Source: Candidatus Dadabacteria bacterium
Lineage (GTDB): Bacteria; Desulfobacterota_D; UBA1144; Nemesobacterales; Nemesobacteraceae
Direction: 5' to 3'
Assembly (NCBI GenBank): GCA_022826905.1
Contig: JAJDUA010000042.1
Location: forward strand, 1-47,030
DNA: 47,030 nt
Shown here: in pieces, positions 37,660 through 43,073 of the stretch
Layout of the letters: the number at the start of each line of letters is the position of its first letter
How positions within the stretch are numbered: position 1 is the first letter of the stretch
The notes under the pieces: generated by a model
What the model was told of the DNA's origin: nothing
The model's input: only the letters and a program-made list of their open reading frames with translations
Database searches by the model: none
Program-made: the position numbers and the translations under genes

Positions 37660-37985
37660 TGTTTTTTCCTCCGAGGATTCACATGGATATTCTGGGAAAT
37701 TATATACTATTATCCCATCTTTAGGCAACGATGCGAGATTGATTTAAACTGTCATTATCCTTTATTGTCAACTGTCTTTTCCGTCATCCTCTTGAGAATT
37801 CCGAGAAAATCCTTTTCTCATTCTGCAGTCTCTACAACAAAATAATTGCCATTTTTTGCGTGTCTTATACATTTATTTAGTCATTACAGGATAAAACGAT
37901 CCATTATTCTCGGACAAAACCTGTGCCGGAAAATATAGAAAAACACATCTAGAGCGATGAGATCAGTTCTGCTTAGAGGTACTCC
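37660..37985. other. 326-bp divergent intergenic region
   Basis: An A+T-rich gap between the argG run (-) and the DUF1214-sulfotransferase cluster (+). It holds a perfect 7-bp inverted repeat GAGAAAA-TCC-TTTTCTC (37803-37819). No promoter for the plus-strand cluster is convincing; TTGCCA near 37845 and A+T-rich hexamers follow but with poor spacing. No ORF above 40 codons looks real. Confidence 0.5.
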
Positions 37986-39197
37986 ATGCGAAAACTCGCA
38001 ATCCGTCTTCTCGCCTTGTTTCGACAGACATCTCTTTTTATCTGGAAGCTGCGTGGCAAAACGGAAGCTGACTTAGCCGCTCAGCGGGTAGTTAACGGGA
38101 AATCCTGGGATGAGTTCTGCGACACTTTAAAAGCCGCGGGGGCAGCTTTAAATTTCCCGAAGGCACCCCAAGACCCATTCAATCAGGCAGAAGGATATCG
38201 GTACTTAAGCCGTATTGCCCGGGCCGGACTGATGGCATTTATCGAGCATGCCGACCCGAAAGCCCCCGTACTTCATCGCGTAGTCAACGAAACAACCAAG
38301 ATAGGTGCAGACAATCCTGATAACTTCTACCAGACTGCAGCACTTAGCGGCGAGTATGAATACAAAATTACGGGGTGGCGCAATAATATCGCATACTTAA
38401 GTTTTGGCACTCAATCCGGCAACTATGGACAAGGACAAGGGTTACCTCCAACAGGGCATATAGAGTCTGACCAAATAGAAACCGATGAAAACGGGTACTT
38501 TGAACTGATACTCAGTTGCAAACCTCAAAGCAAGAACTGGCTTCCCATGACACCGGAAACTGGCACATTAGTGGTACGTCAGACCTTCCTTGATCGCGAA
38601 ACAGAAACTCCGGCAGACTTGCGGATAGAACGAATCAATTGTTCCGAAGATGAACGCCGCCCTTCTCCATTGACGCCGAAACAGCTCGACGAAGGATTGA
38701 AAACTGTGGGAACGCTCGTTGCAGGCGCGCCGCTGCTGTTTGCAAAGTGGTCTCGTGATTTTCAAAAGCACACCAACGAACTGCCAATGTTTGATCCGGA
38801 GGTATCGCTGGCCGCCGGGGGTGATCCAAATATCGTTTACTACCACAGCCATTGGAAAGTAGCGGAAGACGAAGCACTCTTGATAGAAGCAATGCCGCCG
38901 GAATGCGAACATTGGAACTTCCAGTTAAACAACTACTGGATGGAATCGCTGGACTACCGCTATCACACGATACACACTAACAAATATCTTGCACACTACG
39001 AAGACGATGGTTCTGTACGCCTAGTAGTAGCTCACGAGGATCCCGGTCATCCCAACTGGCTCCAGACAGCCGGCCATTTTTCCGGCACGATGTGCTTCAG
39101 GTGGGTACGCGCTAGGGAACATCCTAAACCACAGACCAGATTGATCAAGTTAACTGAACTTAGGCAGTTGTTGAGTCGAACGAACCGCGATGGCTAA
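37986..39197 (+). CDS. DUF1214-domain protein
   Basis: A 403-residue protein with a hydrophobic basic N-terminus (MRKLAIRLLALFRQTSLFIW) and a DUF1214-like C-terminal domain whose last strands read SVRLVVAHEDPGHPNWLQT, then SGTMCFRWV. DUF1214/DUF1254 proteins are beta-rich and of unknown reaction; they are often found next to lipid- or steroid-metabolism genes. The ATG has no strong ribosome site. The gene overlaps the sulfotransferase by 8 bp, so the two are translationally coupled. It is the first gene of a five-gene plus-strand cluster flanked by minus-strand genes. Confidence 0.78.
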   Translation: MRKLAIRLLALFRQTSLFIWKLRGKTEADLAAQRVVNGKSWDEFCDTLKAAGAALNFPKAPQDPFNQAEGYRYLSRIARAGLMAFIEHADPKAPVLHRVVNETTKIGADNPDNFYQTAALSGEYEYKITGWRNNIAYLSFGTQSGNYGQGQGLPPTGHIESDQIETDENGYFELILSCKPQSKNWLPMTPETGTLVVRQTFLDRETETPADLRIERINCSEDERRPSPLTPKQLDEGLKTVGTLVAGAPLLFAKWSRDFQKHTNELPMFDPEVSLAAGGDPNIVYYHSHWKVAEDEALLIEAMPPECEHWNFQLNNYWMESLDYRYHTIHTNKYLAHYEDDGSVRLVVAHEDPGHPNWLQTAGHFSGTMCFRWVRAREHPKPQTRLIKLTELRQLLSRTNRDG

Positions 39198-40446
39198 AAA
39201 GAATCTGGCAACTTCTACAGACTATGAGAACCCCTACCGTCCTCTTCCCGTTAAGATTTTCAATTCCATCGGGAAGCTGAGTGGAAACCTCGGATTATCA
39301 AGTTCTTTGAATATTGAAAAGCTCACCGCCAGCGCGGTTCGAAAAACGAAGCTTGAGAATTTTGGTGACGACGGTCACTTTGAGGCATTGGAGGTTCTCA
39401 TAAATTCGATCAATAACGAAGCCGAGCTGACCCCAACCGGCAGGCTGATACAGAAATTCCGACTCACAAGCGCACTTGTTCATCGTCTGCGAATTGAGGA
39501 ACTGCTGAAACAGCACCCTGAAATACATGAGATCAATCTGGGGAAAATTATCCTGATCACGGGATTGCAGCGCAGTGGAACGACAATACTGCACAGGCTG
39601 CTGAATTCCCATCCGGATATTCGAGGCATATCAGGCGTGGAAGCGCTCAACCCGCTACCGTCAAGAAACAAGGCCGAAGGAACGGTCGCTCGAAATATGC
39701 AGGCAGCCCTGGCACAGCGACTGATTTCGTATTTGTCGCCGCAGTTCATGGCGGTTCATCCCATTGACCATAATGAACCGGAAGAAGACGTAATGCTTCT
39801 TGATCTTAACTTTATGAGCCAGGCGCCGGAAGCCACAATGCATGTGCCGAGTTACTCCCGGTGGCTTGAGAAACAGGACCATACGCGTACCTACGAATAT
39901 TTCCATAAGGTGCTGAAGATTCTGTACTGGCAGCGCCCCTCCAGCAACTGGGTGCTTAAAACGCCGCATCACATGGAATATCTGGATGTGTTTCTTAAGG
40001 TTTTCCCCACTGCTACAGTTGTGCAGACCCATCGCGACCCTCGAAAAACCATGCCTTCTTTCTGCAGTATGGTTGCTCACAACCGCGGCATATTCAGCGA
40101 TCACGTGGATCCGAAGGAAATCGCCGGACACTGGTCCAGAAAGGCTCGCAGGATGGTCGAGTTAACCCTCCAGTCCCGAGATAAAGCAGATGCCGACCGA
40201 TTCGTCGACGTTTCGTACTACGACTTGATGAAGGATCCGATCGCTCAGCTTCGCCGGATTTATCTCCAGGCGGGGATTGATTTTGATGCCGAAGCGACGC
40301 AGCAAGCAAAAACTTTTATGAAAAGAAATCCGCAAAATCGCTTCGGCAGGCACGTCTACCATTTAAGTGATTTCGGACTGAGCGAGGAAATTATTGAAGA
40401 TTATTTCTCCTCTTATCGGGAGAAATATGAAATTCCTTTCGAGTAA
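39190..40446 (+). CDS. PAPS-dependent sulfotransferase
   Basis: A 418-residue sulfotransferase of the Sulfotransfer_3 type, which moves sulfate from PAPS to a hydroxyl or amine. The 5'-phosphosulfate loop is ITGLQRSGTTILHRLL (123-138) and the 3'-phosphate motif THRDPRKTMPSF (280-291); WVLKTPHHMEYL (254-265) is the conserved central segment. The extra N-terminal helical region of about 115 residues is typical of bacterial members. The acceptor is not known. The gene overlaps the DUF1214 gene and precedes two dehydrogenases, so the acceptor is probably an alcohol made in the same pathway (inference). Confidence 0.88.
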   Translation: MAKKNLATSTDYENPYRPLPVKIFNSIGKLSGNLGLSSSLNIEKLTASAVRKTKLENFGDDGHFEALEVLINSINNEAELTPTGRLIQKFRLTSALVHRLRIEELLKQHPEIHEINLGKIILITGLQRSGTTILHRLLNSHPDIRGISGVEALNPLPSRNKAEGTVARNMQAALAQRLISYLSPQFMAVHPIDHNEPEEDVMLLDLNFMSQAPEATMHVPSYSRWLEKQDHTRTYEYFHKVLKILYWQRPSSNWVLKTPHHMEYLDVFLKVFPTATVVQTHRDPRKTMPSFCSMVAHNRGIFSDHVDPKEIAGHWSRKARRMVELTLQSRDKADADRFVDVSYYDLMKDPIAQLRRIYLQAGIDFDAEATQQAKTFMKRNPQNRFGRHVYHLSDFGLSEEIIEDYFSSYREKYEIPFE

Positions 40447-40502
40447 TCTATGCAGATGCAAGCAATTACAAAAAACCGAAAAACAATGCGGAGAAACTCG
40501 CC

Positions 40503-41513
40503 ATGAAACGAAGAACAAAGCAAATGGGAGATGGCTCTTTCATAGACGCTATAATCATCGCAATTCGAGATTTGGCGCAACCCAAGGTATCGGAAGTAAG
40601 TCCTGTTCCAGAACACGTACGTATCGACGGCAAGACCTGTCTGATAACCGGAGCGAACAGCGGGCTGGGCAAAGCCGCCGCCGCCGAGCTTGCAAGGCGC
40701 GGAGCGAACATGATTTTAGCTTGTCGGCCCGGGCATACGAAAACATGCGACGAAATAAAGAAACTGTCCGGTTCAGATAATGTAGAAATGATGGAAGTGG
40801 ACCTCTCGGATCTTCGATCGGTACACCGTCTCTGCGACAGTCTGAGTAACCGCGGCATCAAAATTGATATTGCGGTCTTTAACGCTGGTCTGGCGCTCAA
40901 AAAGGCAACTAAAACACCGCAAGGATACGAAACAATGTTCACGGTTCATTTCCTGTCGAATCGCGTCATGGTTGACCGGTGGTTAAAAGACGGCGTGATC
41001 TGTCCATCCAGCCAGACTGGAAAGACGCCGCGGATCATCTTCGTCTCATCCGAGGCTCATCGATCCTCTTATACTATCGATTTCGACCGCCTCGGGGAAT
41101 TTACCGACTATAAGCTCGGGGATGGCTTCAAGTATTACGGTATCAGCAAGCTTGTTTCGTGCATGTTCGCAACTGAACTCTCACGCCGCCTGAACACGGG
41201 CGGCAAAACTGAAGTTGCGGTTCACTCAATGTGTCCCGGAGGCGTTGCTACGAACATTTCACGGGAAACGCCGTTGATACTGAAGCCCATAGTTAACCCG
41301 TTGCTAAGATATTTTTTTCAATCGCCGGAAGAAGCCATTGGACCGGTAATTTACTTGTGCTGCGCAGAAGAGGCCGGCACCGACACAGGTATCTACCTGC
41401 ATTTAATGCAGCGAAAGTCCGTGTCTCCTACGGCGCTGGATGAGGAAAACGGAACCAGGTTGTGGGAAGCGAGCAAGCCCTTAGTCGTCAATTCCCGGGA
41501 ACAAATCCCGTAA
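40503..41513 (+). CDS. Short-chain dehydrogenase, retinol-dehydrogenase-like
   Basis: A 336-residue SDR with a 40-residue N-terminal extension. TGANSGLGKAAAAELARRGA is the nucleotide loop, IAVFNAG replaces the usual NNAG with FNAG, FVSSEAH carries the catalytic Ser and YYGISK the Y-x3-K. The order and spacing resemble retinol- and WW-domain-like dehydrogenases that act on lipophilic alcohols and ketones. It is 56 bp downstream of the sulfotransferase. Confidence 0.86.
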   Translation: MKRRTKQMGDGSFIDAIIIAIRDLAQPKVSEVSPVPEHVRIDGKTCLITGANSGLGKAAAAELARRGANMILACRPGHTKTCDEIKKLSGSDNVEMMEVDLSDLRSVHRLCDSLSNRGIKIDIAVFNAGLALKKATKTPQGYETMFTVHFLSNRVMVDRWLKDGVICPSSQTGKTPRIIFVSSEAHRSSYTIDFDRLGEFTDYKLGDGFKYYGISKLVSCMFATELSRRLNTGGKTEVAVHSMCPGGVATNISRETPLILKPIVNPLLRYFFQSPEEAIGPVIYLCCAEEAGTDTGIYLHLMQRKSVSPTALDEENGTRLWEASKPLVVNSREQIP

Positions 41514-41544
41514 CCGGCACAGCGGCCGGGGGAGCAGGTGCCGG
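41514..41544 (+). other. Inverted repeat between the two dehydrogenase genes
   Basis: CCGGCAC (41514-41520) and GTGCCGG (41538-41544) can form a 7-bp G+C stem with a 17-nt loop just after the first dehydrogenase. There is no T-run, so processing or partial attenuation is as likely as termination. Confidence 0.35.
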
Positions 41545-41613
41545 ATGCGCATTTGCGTTATATAAAGATCAACTGTACGCGAGACCACACTTTGCACATA
41601 ATATTGTTCCAGC

Positions 41614-42621
41614 ATGCCTAAGATGTTCTCAAAATCCGTAACTCACATCCTGCATCTGTTTACGAGTAAGCCGATGGCGGAAGAAGTCGATATGTCGGGT
41701 CGGAACGTCATCGTGACAGGCGCCGCTCCCAATTCAATCGGTTACGAAACGGCTAAGATCCTCGCAAGCTGGGGAGCTACGGTCGTTGTCACCAGCATTG
41801 ACAATATTGAACTGATGGAGGGCTCTTTGAGGAGAGACTTGCGAATCATTGGCGCCGACGAGAAGAAAATTGCAGCCCATGCGTTAGATCTGTGCGATGT
41901 TGACAGCGTTAATAATTTCACGACGTGGTACCGAAAAAATTACGACGACCGACTGCACGTACTTGTCAATAACGCGGGGATTCACAGGAATATTCTTAAT
42001 CCAAGAAAAAAGCCGCCCATGACGAAAGACGGTTTCGAAATTCATTGGCGAACCAATTTCCTTGGAACCTTTCACCTGACGAGTCTGCTGCTTCCGATTC
42101 TTAAGCGAAACGGTCTGAAAAGCGGAGATGCGCGAGTCGTCAACGTAACTTCCCACCTGCACGACAGAGTGAAAAACAAGAGCCTGTTTGATAACGATGA
42201 CGGAGACTACAGCTCCTGGGAGGCTTACGGGCTGTCAAAATTAGCGCTGATTCACTTTACTTTCGAGATCCAGAGACGGTTTGCCGGAGAGTACAACCTC
42301 CAATCGGCAGCGGTACACCCCGGGTCTGTCAAGACTAATCTTCTGAAGACTGAAGAATTCGAGGGAAGGATCAGGTATCTTCTAAACCGAGTCTGTTCCG
42401 CACTCACATCTTTTGTCTTGCTGCGCCCGATATTCGGCGCGCAGACTTCTGTGATGTGCGCCAGCACGCAAACACTTCAAGGTGGAAGTTATTACGTGCG
42501 CTGCGAAACAGCGGAATCATCCGGCGAGACAAAAGACCGGGATGTGTCGAAACTCCTCTGGGACAAATCAGACGCATGGGTTAAAACTCTAGTTAAAAAC
42601 AGCGGACATGAGCAGTCTTAG
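41614..42621 (+). CDS. Short-chain dehydrogenase
   Basis: A 335-residue SDR, distinct from the previous one. VIVTGAAPNSIGYETAKILASWG is the nucleotide loop with a two-residue-longer turn, LVNNAG is standard, VVNVTSHLHD carries the catalytic Ser and AYGLSK the Y-x3-K. The C-terminal RCETAESSGETKD segment is unusual. Two SDRs in one cluster suggest a two-step oxidation or reduction of the same substrate. It overlaps the SRPBCC gene by 14 bp. Confidence 0.86.
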   Translation: MPKMFSKSVTHILHLFTSKPMAEEVDMSGRNVIVTGAAPNSIGYETAKILASWGATVVVTSIDNIELMEGSLRRDLRIIGADEKKIAAHALDLCDVDSVNNFTTWYRKNYDDRLHVLVNNAGIHRNILNPRKKPPMTKDGFEIHWRTNFLGTFHLTSLLLPILKRNGLKSGDARVVNVTSHLHDRVKNKSLFDNDDGDYSSWEAYGLSKLALIHFTFEIQRRFAGEYNLQSAAVHPGSVKTNLLKTEEFEGRIRYLLNRVCSALTSFVLLRPIFGAQTSVMCASTQTLQGGSYYVRCETAESSGETKDRDVSKLLWDKSDAWVKTLVKNSGHEQS

Positions 42622-43066
42622 CATAATTACCGACCGCATTCAGATCGACGCGCCTATTGACTTCGTCTGGGAGGTACTGACTGACGTTGAAAAATACGGC
42701 GAATGGAATCCATTCACGTCTCAGGCCAGAACCGATTTTAAAATCGGATCGCCCGCTCATCTGCTGGTAAGAATGTGGCCGGGGAAATTCAGAATAACCG
42801 AACGTATATGCGCATTTGAAAAACCGCGTCTTCTTGCCTGGAGCAGGAAGTTCGGAACTTCCTGGCTTTTGTTCGTGGTGCGGGAGCAGCGTCTGGAACC
42901 TGTAAGTGATACCAGCTGCACCTACCATAATGTCGACCTGCTGAACGGTGTGCTCTCACAATTCGTCTCACTGTTCTTCGGCGGTTACATACGCCGCGGT
43001 TTCAGCGATGTAGGCACGGCATTGAAACTTCGCGCGGAAACTCTGTATCGGGAAAGGAAGAACTGA
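42608..43066 (+). CDS. SRPBCC/START-like protein
   Basis: A 152-residue helix-grip protein. The opening IQIDAPIDFVWEVLTDVEKYGEWNPF is the classical SRPBCC start, followed by alternating strands (GSPAHLLVRMWPGKFRI, FEKPRLLAWSRKFG) and a long C-terminal helix. The fold binds hydrophobic ligands in a cavity and may act as a cyclase, carrier or hydrolase. Its place at the end of the cluster, overlapping the second SDR, suggests it handles the pathway substrate. Confidence 0.85.
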   Translation: MSSLSIITDRIQIDAPIDFVWEVLTDVEKYGEWNPFTSQARTDFKIGSPAHLLVRMWPGKFRITERICAFEKPRLLAWSRKFGTSWLLFVVREQRLEPVSDTSCTYHNVDLLNGVLSQFVSLFFGGYIRRGFSDVGTALKLRAETLYRERKN

Positions 43067-43073
43067 AAATCCG

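Follow-up and report, generated by a model that had tools for sequence, protein, structure and literature searches.

A horizontally spread five-gene cassette with a predicted role in sterol tailoring and sulfation in a Dadabacteria-type genome

Five adjacent genes in a Dadabacteria-type genome, from a type of bacterium that occurs in sponges, encode a DUF1214 protein, a sulfotransferase of the type that uses 3'-phosphoadenosine-5'-phosphosulfate (PAPS), two short-chain dehydrogenases/reductases (SDR1 and SDR2) and an SRPBCC protein. They lie in the 47,030-nucleotide stretch that was analysed (G000:C1:1-47030, hereafter the window; the genome has 1.78 Mb in 69 contigs). The five genes are a genuine unit, and an empty site, foreign codon usage and a tree that mixes phyla support the conclusion that the cassette was inserted and spread between bacterial phyla by transfer. 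Based on sequence and genome context, we think it probable that this horizontally spread cassette tailors sterols and ends in PAPS-dependent sulfation, with a sterol as the presumed substrate and a sulfated sterol as the presumed product.

The five genes as a unit

An earlier note on this DNA had placed five plus-strand genes between minus-strand genes, and all of the open reading frames (ORFs) and Pfam families were confirmed:

37986..39197, plus strand: DUF1214 protein, 403 amino acids, partner of the sulfotransferase (PF06742, 34.2 bits, cut-off 25)
39190..40446, plus strand: PAPS-type sulfotransferase, 418 amino acids (PF13469, 161.8 bits, cut-off 27)
40503..41513, plus strand: first SDR (SDR1), 336 amino acids (PF00106, 71.8 bits, cut-off 26.6)
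41614..42621, plus strand: second SDR (SDR2), 335 amino acids (PF00106, 80.7 bits, cut-off 26.6)
42608..43066, plus strand: SRPBCC protein, probable ligand holder, 152 amino acids (PF10604, 37.3 bits, cut-off 27.4)

To find relatives, bacterial and archaeal genomes were scanned with the DUF1214 protein, and the best 80 loci of 181 matches were kept. Their DUF1214 proteins are 55-95% identical to that of the window, the closest being from metagenome-assembled genomes (MAGs) of Candidatus Dadabacteria (91-95%). All five genes are present in 28 of the 80 loci, and in every one of these they have the same order and strand and lie within 8 kb. Seventeen loci lack the second SDR alone, and another 28 hold DUF1214, sulfotransferase and first SDR; SDR2 is missing from both the four-gene and the three-gene forms. 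The remainder comprise one locus with the core three genes and an unlinked SDR match, one with DUF1214-sulfotransferase, two from Gordonia with DUF1214-sulfotransferase and an SDR on the opposite strand, and three with DUF1214 alone, where the contig is short or ends nearby. The order DUF1214-sulfotransferase-SDR holds in 66 of the 74 loci that contain all three; the SDR comes first in seven Myxococcota-type loci, and in L074 the SDR match lies ~3.5 kb past the sulfotransferase.

The genes also share their histories. Distance matrices of the core three genes correlate with r of 0.86-0.90 (75 rows) and those of all five with r of 0.71-0.91 (29 rows), and in neither case was any of 199 permutations as high. 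The earlier note had proposed looking in other genomes for conserved order and for shared rather than independent gene histories, and both are borne out across phyla. Chance adjacency is ruled out by the conserved order and the co-inheritance. In seven loci, all acidimicrobial, a single open frame of ~760-790 amino acids encodes both the sulfotransferase and the first SDR (L039, L044, L046, L047, L048, L051 and L052; in L046 it is truncated where the contig ends). The L047 protein matches the two domains in Pfam, at 145.9 and 54.6 bits. This fusion argues that the two enzymes act on one substrate.

The sulfotransferase has intact motifs of the PAPS-dependent type, and sulfate transfer is its predicted activity. 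Residues G125, L126, R128, T131, T132, H281, R282, P284 and S290 are invariant among 31 sequences, and we take them to be the phosphosulfate loop and the 3'-phosphate-binding motif; the nearest solved structures are 2zq5 (189 bits) and 2z6v (170 bits). N127, S183, Y212 and K216 of SDR1 are invariant in 34 sequences, as are N119, S180, Y205 and K209 of SDR2 in 14. In cross matches the two SDRs are only 24-26% identical. The best NCBIfam model for both is PRK06197, presumably the retinol-dehydrogenase-like SDR style, with scores of 134.5 and 158.7 bits that lie under its curated cut-off of 268. Among the underlying alignments, A1 and A2 drew on 30 and 39 of the 80 loci, A3 omits the SDR1 rows L069, L074 and L078, and A5 omits the SRPBCC rows L074 and L078, these rows being weak or distant. 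The structural model of the SRPBCC protein (predicted local distance difference test score, pLDDT, 93.6) gave Foldseek matches to PYR/PYL receptors and aromatase/cyclases. In a six-frame genome search the DUF1214 gene reached just 23 bits, under the PF06742 cut-off. Its AlphaFold model (pLDDT 89) has the same fold as its best match, 6ANS from Burkholderia cenocepacia (47% identical), with weaker matches to VPA0735 and VPA0106; none of these three is listed with a function, and none is a known lyase. The ratio of nonsynonymous to synonymous substitution rates is 0.05-0.24 for all five genes, comparing the window with six close relatives.

Within the window, DUF1214 and sulfotransferase overlap by 8 base pairs (bp) and SDR2 and SRPBCC by 14 bp, values noted earlier that the ORF coordinates reproduce exactly; SDR1 is separated from the sulfotransferase by 56 bp and from SDR2 by 100 bp. 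Conservation does not extend to the 8-bp overlap: the DUF1214 ORF of L002 stops before the sulfotransferase match begins. Ribosome sites had been described as generally weak. Those of four genes do look weak; the DUF1214 start is preceded by AGAGG and is not. Promoter-like signals were as numerous as in shuffled sequence (6 versus 6.0) and terminator-like signals only slightly raised (9 versus 5.9), and we therefore make no claim about transcription.

Insertion and transfer between phyla

The DUF1214 gene is present in 11 of the 57 genomes surveyed from the phylum; these are 11 of the 13 members of the window's genus, and none of the 44 others has it. Two congeners (L128, L129) and a member of the sister genus (L130) have an empty site in which argG, a 165-amino-acid ORF and a yfiH-like gene adjoin, with ~240-300 bp between the last two. 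This places the borders of the insertion as follows:

37729..37985, no strand: left border, from the divergent 165-amino-acid ORF to DUF1214, on the left of the inserted segment (L128, L129 and L130 have the empty site)
43067..43073, no strand: right border, from SRPBCC to the convergent yfiH-like gene (ORF list and empty site)

The flanks are on the minus strand and consist, as named by sequence reading, of queA, argG and the 165-amino-acid ORF, which has no Pfam match, on the left, and of yfiH-, rluD- and S-adenosylmethionine-hydrolase-like genes on the right.

Codon usage of the cassette differs from that of the rest of the window, with a distance of 5.01 against a null of 2.59 +/- 0.45 that none of 500 random gene sets reaches. 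Its tetranucleotide distance is exceeded by only 1 of 84 sliding windows, and that one overlaps the cassette. The earlier note's impression that composition is unlike the flanks therefore holds for codons and tetranucleotides and fails for guanine-cytosine content, which equals that of the rest of the window and was ruled out as evidence of transfer.

A tree was built from concatenated sequences of the core three, DUF1214, sulfotransferase and SDR1 (73 rows, 72 loci and the window), after removal of L033 and L046, in which the SDR is cut off. It comes from a quick search, has some long branches, and carries phylum labels taken from record titles. Its starred branches force at least five changes for Acidobacteriota, five for Pseudomonadota, three for Chloroflexota, two for Gemmatimonadota and two for the Dadabacteria group; Actinomycetota need only one. 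Together with the empty site and the codon usage, this mixing of phyla upholds the origin by transfer that had been proposed from composition. Comparison with argG is suggestive only, because DUF1214 may evolve slowly: identity to the window is higher for DUF1214 than for argG in 35 of 40 non-Dadabacteria genomes and higher for the sulfotransferase in 20 of 40, with a correlation of -0.33.

By eye, the ORF list of the window shows no transposase next to the cassette, and a search for long repeats that flank it found none. In the close relative L004 the cassette lies at another site and has a mobile-element gene between SDR1 and SDR2:

L004:11668-12828, plus strand: IS605 OrfB/TnpB gene (PF01385, 61 bits; PF07282, 82 bits)

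The congener G018, whose argG is 94% identical to that of the window, has kept SDR1, SDR2 and SRPBCC at the native site (L138:5414-7978) at 81-89% identity and has lost exactly DUF1214 and the sulfotransferase. Another contig of this genome (L015:2949-7024) carries a divergent set of DUF1214 (75%), sulfotransferase (56%), SDR (57%) and SRPBCC (52%), which groups with a gemmatimonadote on a starred branch. DUF1214 and the sulfotransferase were therefore lost together in a genome in which a second pair is present.

Sterol genes and the proposed reaction sequence

In the phylum survey, an ERG4/ERG24 sterol reductase scores above cut-off in exactly the 11 genomes with the cassette and in none of the 46 others, three of which have a short match under the cut-off. 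Sterol methyltransferases occur in 12 of the 57 genomes, all of the window's genus. We extended this survey to 44 cassette genomes (42 for sterol methyltransferase), picked by us among the window's genome and those to which the 80 loci belong, and to 14 controls; three of the picked genomes are also in the phylum survey, as equal coordinates indicate (G057 is G020, G058 is G025 and G067 is G018). ERG4/ERG24 is above cut-off in 34 of 44 cassette genomes versus none of the controls, and sterol methyltransferase is found in 27 of 42 versus none. KshA_C Rieske proteins exceed the cut-off in 37 of 44, and one control matches below it. SE-bearing open frames (SE, squalene epoxidase) of 1,130-1,581 amino acids were seen in 13 of the 44.

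Sterol genes are also linked to the cassette. ERG4/ERG24 lies inside the cassette locus in five of the 44 genomes (also in L050) versus 0.32 expected, an excess with a Poisson P of 2e-5, or 3e-4 if counted as four lineages. In L012 the cassette sits amid P450-GPP34, MMPL, ERG24 and Rieske genes, and the close relative L006 has a sterol methyltransferase (68.7 bits) and a KshA_C Rieske gene (76.9 bits) between SRPBCC and yfiH. Seven acidimicrobial loci have a gene of the fatty-acid-hydroxylase family upstream. The genome of the window itself encodes, outside the window, an ERG4/ERG24 gene, three sterol methyltransferases, a KshA_C Rieske protein and a P450-GPP34 fusion. An MMPL gene there adjoins the KshA_C Rieske gene, on whose far side lies a sterol methyltransferase; a relative of this transporter is found near the cassette in L012. 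The earlier note had pointed to a hydrophobic (lipid, terpenoid or steroid-like) substrate, and genome context narrows this to a sterol or steroid.

De novo sterol synthesis in the window's genome was rejected, as no squalene epoxidase match was found in it. Sterol is for this reason probably imported. Further features of these genomes are:

L132:10973-13228, minus strand: MMPL transporter of the window's genome, whose match to a sterol-sensing domain is weak (25.6 bits, cut-off 22.3)
L131:8895-10913, minus strand; L012:70-2148, plus strand; L018:1440-3446, minus strand: P450-GPP34 fusion (that of L018 by similarity)

Two separate observations concern these genes. Fusions of a P450 with a GPP34 (GOLPH3-type) domain turn up repeatedly in different phyla, close to sterol genes or to the cassette. 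The window's genome, at 1.78 Mb, encodes three sterol methyltransferases (L131, L132) and gave no squalene epoxidase match, which suggests that it uses sterols made by others. The minus-strand gene at L139:5717-8935 encodes a protein of ~1,070 amino acids that combines squalene epoxidase (91 bits) with a cyclase (N-terminal part 169 bits, C-terminal part 184 bits) and sits in a sterol operon; similar long ORFs are present in L140 and L141.

Genes for PAPS supply were found as well. The window's genome has an adenosine-5'-phosphosulfate (APS) kinase (230 bits). Near the cassette, a CysC-like gene lies in 12 of the 80 loci and CysD/CysN in five (Pfam-checked on L021 and L039), and five acidimicrobial fusion loci are directly followed by CysD and by a CysN with an APS-kinase domain.

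From these data we infer the substrate, the product, the order of steps, the import and the role of DUF1214 in the following scheme. A sterol, probably imported, would be held or carried by the SRPBCC protein, and may also be altered by the sterol methyltransferases, ERG4/ERG24 reductase and KshA-like Rieske oxygenase encoded elsewhere in the genome. The two SDRs would determine the oxidation level or configuration of at least one hydroxyl group. The sulfotransferase would then transfer sulfate from PAPS to cap a hydroxyl, the APS kinase of the genome being available for PAPS supply. DUF1214 may work directly with the sulfotransferase, perhaps by presenting the sterol or by acting on its sulfate ester. 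Some sponge steroid sulfates, such as halistanol sulfate, are presumably 3-alpha, and an SDR pair that inverts the 3-hydroxyl before sulfation would suit 3-alpha sulfated sterols.

The pairing of DUF1214 with the sulfotransferase allows another role for the sulfate: it could make the sterol hydroxyl a leaving group that DUF1214 then eliminates, so that the product is a sterol that has been deoxygenated or rearranged. Polyketide synthases have sulfotransferase domains whose sulfation step is known to precede elimination, and one such domain (4gox) is a weak match at E 0.003. Almost every locus has DUF1214 and sulfotransferase side by side, and G018 lost the two together. However, DUF1214 has no structural or sequence match to a known lyase, and we regard activation by sulfation as very improbable.

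Distant relatives, habitat and known systems

DUF1214 relatives occur in 89 of 121 genomes of the Gordonia/Mycobacteriaceae family, from which we fetched ten loci (L107-L116). Four of them (L107, L109, L112 and L116) have a DUF1214-like gene and a sulfotransferase, usually with an SDR, beside steroid-degradation genes. In L109 a DUF1214-SDR-sulfotransferase triad lies beside HsaA (693 bits), HsaC (555) and HsaB (302; NCBIfam) and KshA_C (290; Pfam); the settings of L107, L112 and L116 were identified by tblastn against L109, and L107 has DUF1214-sulfotransferase without an SDR. CysD/CysN lies near the actinobacterial genes in five of the ten (L109, L110, L111, L113 and L114), L108 has the DUF1214 gene alone, and L115 has none of the steroid or Cys genes. 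By Pfam, none of the five cassette genes of the window is itself an hsa or ksh gene.

These relatives raise the question of whether the cassette serves catabolism or detoxification, with host sterols or steroids being oxidised and sulfated for breakdown or export. Besides the steroid-degradation settings, the frequency of KshA_C in cassette genomes and the presence of fatty-acid/hydrocarbon-type carriers such as Ketobacter and Gordonia speak for it. Against this, the genes of the window's genome are, as far as seen, sterol-modifying rather than degrading (Hsa was not searched for there). We judge a catabolic role quite improbable.

Several observations weigh against a sterol-sulfating cassette. 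The actinobacterial DUF1214-like gene is just 27-31% identical and in L109 misses the Pfam model, the SDR there belongs to another subfamily than those of the window, and 6 of the 10 loci have none of the Hsa/Ksh genes. In sphingomonad plasmids a distant DUF1214 lies near SDRs, in some cases with a sulfotransferase, and with no evident steroid genes (28 plasmid records matched, all below 60% identity, and four regions were read). Five gammaproteobacteria of free-living type (G085-G089) have all five genes and neither ERG4/ERG24 nor sterol methyltransferase, and G016, one of the 12 genomes of the phylum with a sterol methyltransferase, has no cassette. KshA_C and squalene epoxidase are weaker evidence because their models also give matches in controls. 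The pattern among Dadabacteria congeners may be one event; only 2 of the 13 lack the cassette, and one of these is 89% complete. Incompleteness of MAGs could hide genes, and the locus counts rest on the best 80 of 181 matches, picked by DUF1214 similarity.

Habitat is a further point on that side. Sample tags such as SB06xx, RHO, IRC, APA, COS, jk18x and p16x mark 52 of the 80 loci, and we take them to denote sponge samples. Read in this way, the tags place most carriers in sponges; among the locus titles as listed, only that of L008 contains 'sponge', and the tags are absent from the accessible text of PMC10469786. Co-occurrence of the cassette with sterol genes is confounded by habitat, because sterol genes abound in sponge symbionts generally: according to the accessible text of PMC9531527, 115 of 537 Ircinia MAGs, in 10 phyla, have steroid clusters. 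The sulfated compound could accordingly be another hydrophobic alcohol (a terpenoid, hopanoid, carotenoid or fatty alcohol), with sterol genes merely common in the same habitat, a reading with which the free-living carriers that lack ERG4/ERG24 and sterol methyltransferase and the plasmid relatives without clear steroid genes also agree. It is made unlikely by linkage to ERG24, sterol methyltransferase and Rieske genes above expectation in several lineages, by the steroid-degradation setting of the distant DUF1214-sulfotransferase pair, and by the strong KshA_C matches of the free-living carriers (230-236 bits in each of G085-G089). We therefore retain a sterol as the probable substrate.

Sulfated steroids are a hallmark of sponges (reviewed in PMC8145587), which contain 3-beta-sulfated and trisulfated forms (PMC7551063, PMC6723502), and sponge symbionts methylate sterols and perhaps make them (PMC10070321, PMC9531527), as far as the accessible text of these articles goes. 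A search of the literature, with subscription papers and preprints outside its scope, found no paper on DUF1214 with a sulfotransferase and none joining sponge, symbiont, sulfotransferase and Dadabacteria, and the listings searched held no bacterial sterol sulfation. This limited search agrees with the earlier remark that no named pathway has this gene set: the families are known, and the literature searched seems to contain no description of the five-gene unit or of how it has spread. The cassette is a concrete, testable bacterial candidate source for the sulfated sterols of sponges. It provides a first biological setting for this group of DUF1214 proteins, and may help to explain why actinobacterial cholesterol clusters contain sulfotransferase, SDR and DUF1214-like genes. 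More tentatively, and with some doubt on our part, symbionts of several phyla may share a sterol-sulfation cassette and make part of the sulfated sterols of sponges, with DUF1214 as a partner enzyme of a new class whose target is the sterol or its sulfate ester.

Among solved structures, 2zq5 and 2z6v belong to the same PF13469 family as the window's sulfotransferase and are listed as putative uncharacterised proteins; we take them to be mycobacterial Stf1 and Stf9, and know of neither as part of a five-gene set. The DUF1214-type structure 6ANS, of the same fold as the window's protein, is likewise listed without function.

The actinobacterial cholesterol-catabolism region shares with the window a DUF1214-like gene adjoining a PF13469 sulfotransferase, usually an SDR, and, in four of ten loci, a steroid-degradation setting. 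The Hsa-linked loci differ in that, in matches long enough, their DUF1214 is 28-31% and their sulfotransferase 34-36% identical to that of the window, their SDR is of another subfamily, and SRPBCC and a second SDR are missing. We assume that these sulfotransferase, SDR and DUF1214-like genes are Rv3529c-Rv3531c. In the accessible text of PMC6429209, Rv3529c, Rv3530c and Rv3531c appear in a table of cholesterol-catabolic genes, and that of PMC8882603 gives Rv3529c as the sulfotransferase Stf1.

The sterol methyltransferases of sponge symbionts described in PMC10070321, whose accessible main text has no word starting with 'sulf', come from the same kind of bacteria and have three counterparts in the window's genome. 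They carry out side-chain methylation, unlike the window's cassette. The CSG steroid clusters of PMC9531527, whose accessible main text contains neither 'sulfotransferase' nor 'sulfate', share with the cassette an occurrence in sponge symbionts of many phyla, horizontal transfer and sterol enzymes, and CSG-like operons are present in cassette genomes (L139-L141). Whereas CSG consists of ERG24-CYP51-LSS, the window's cassette contains none of these three by Pfam and adds sulfation, its predicted final step.

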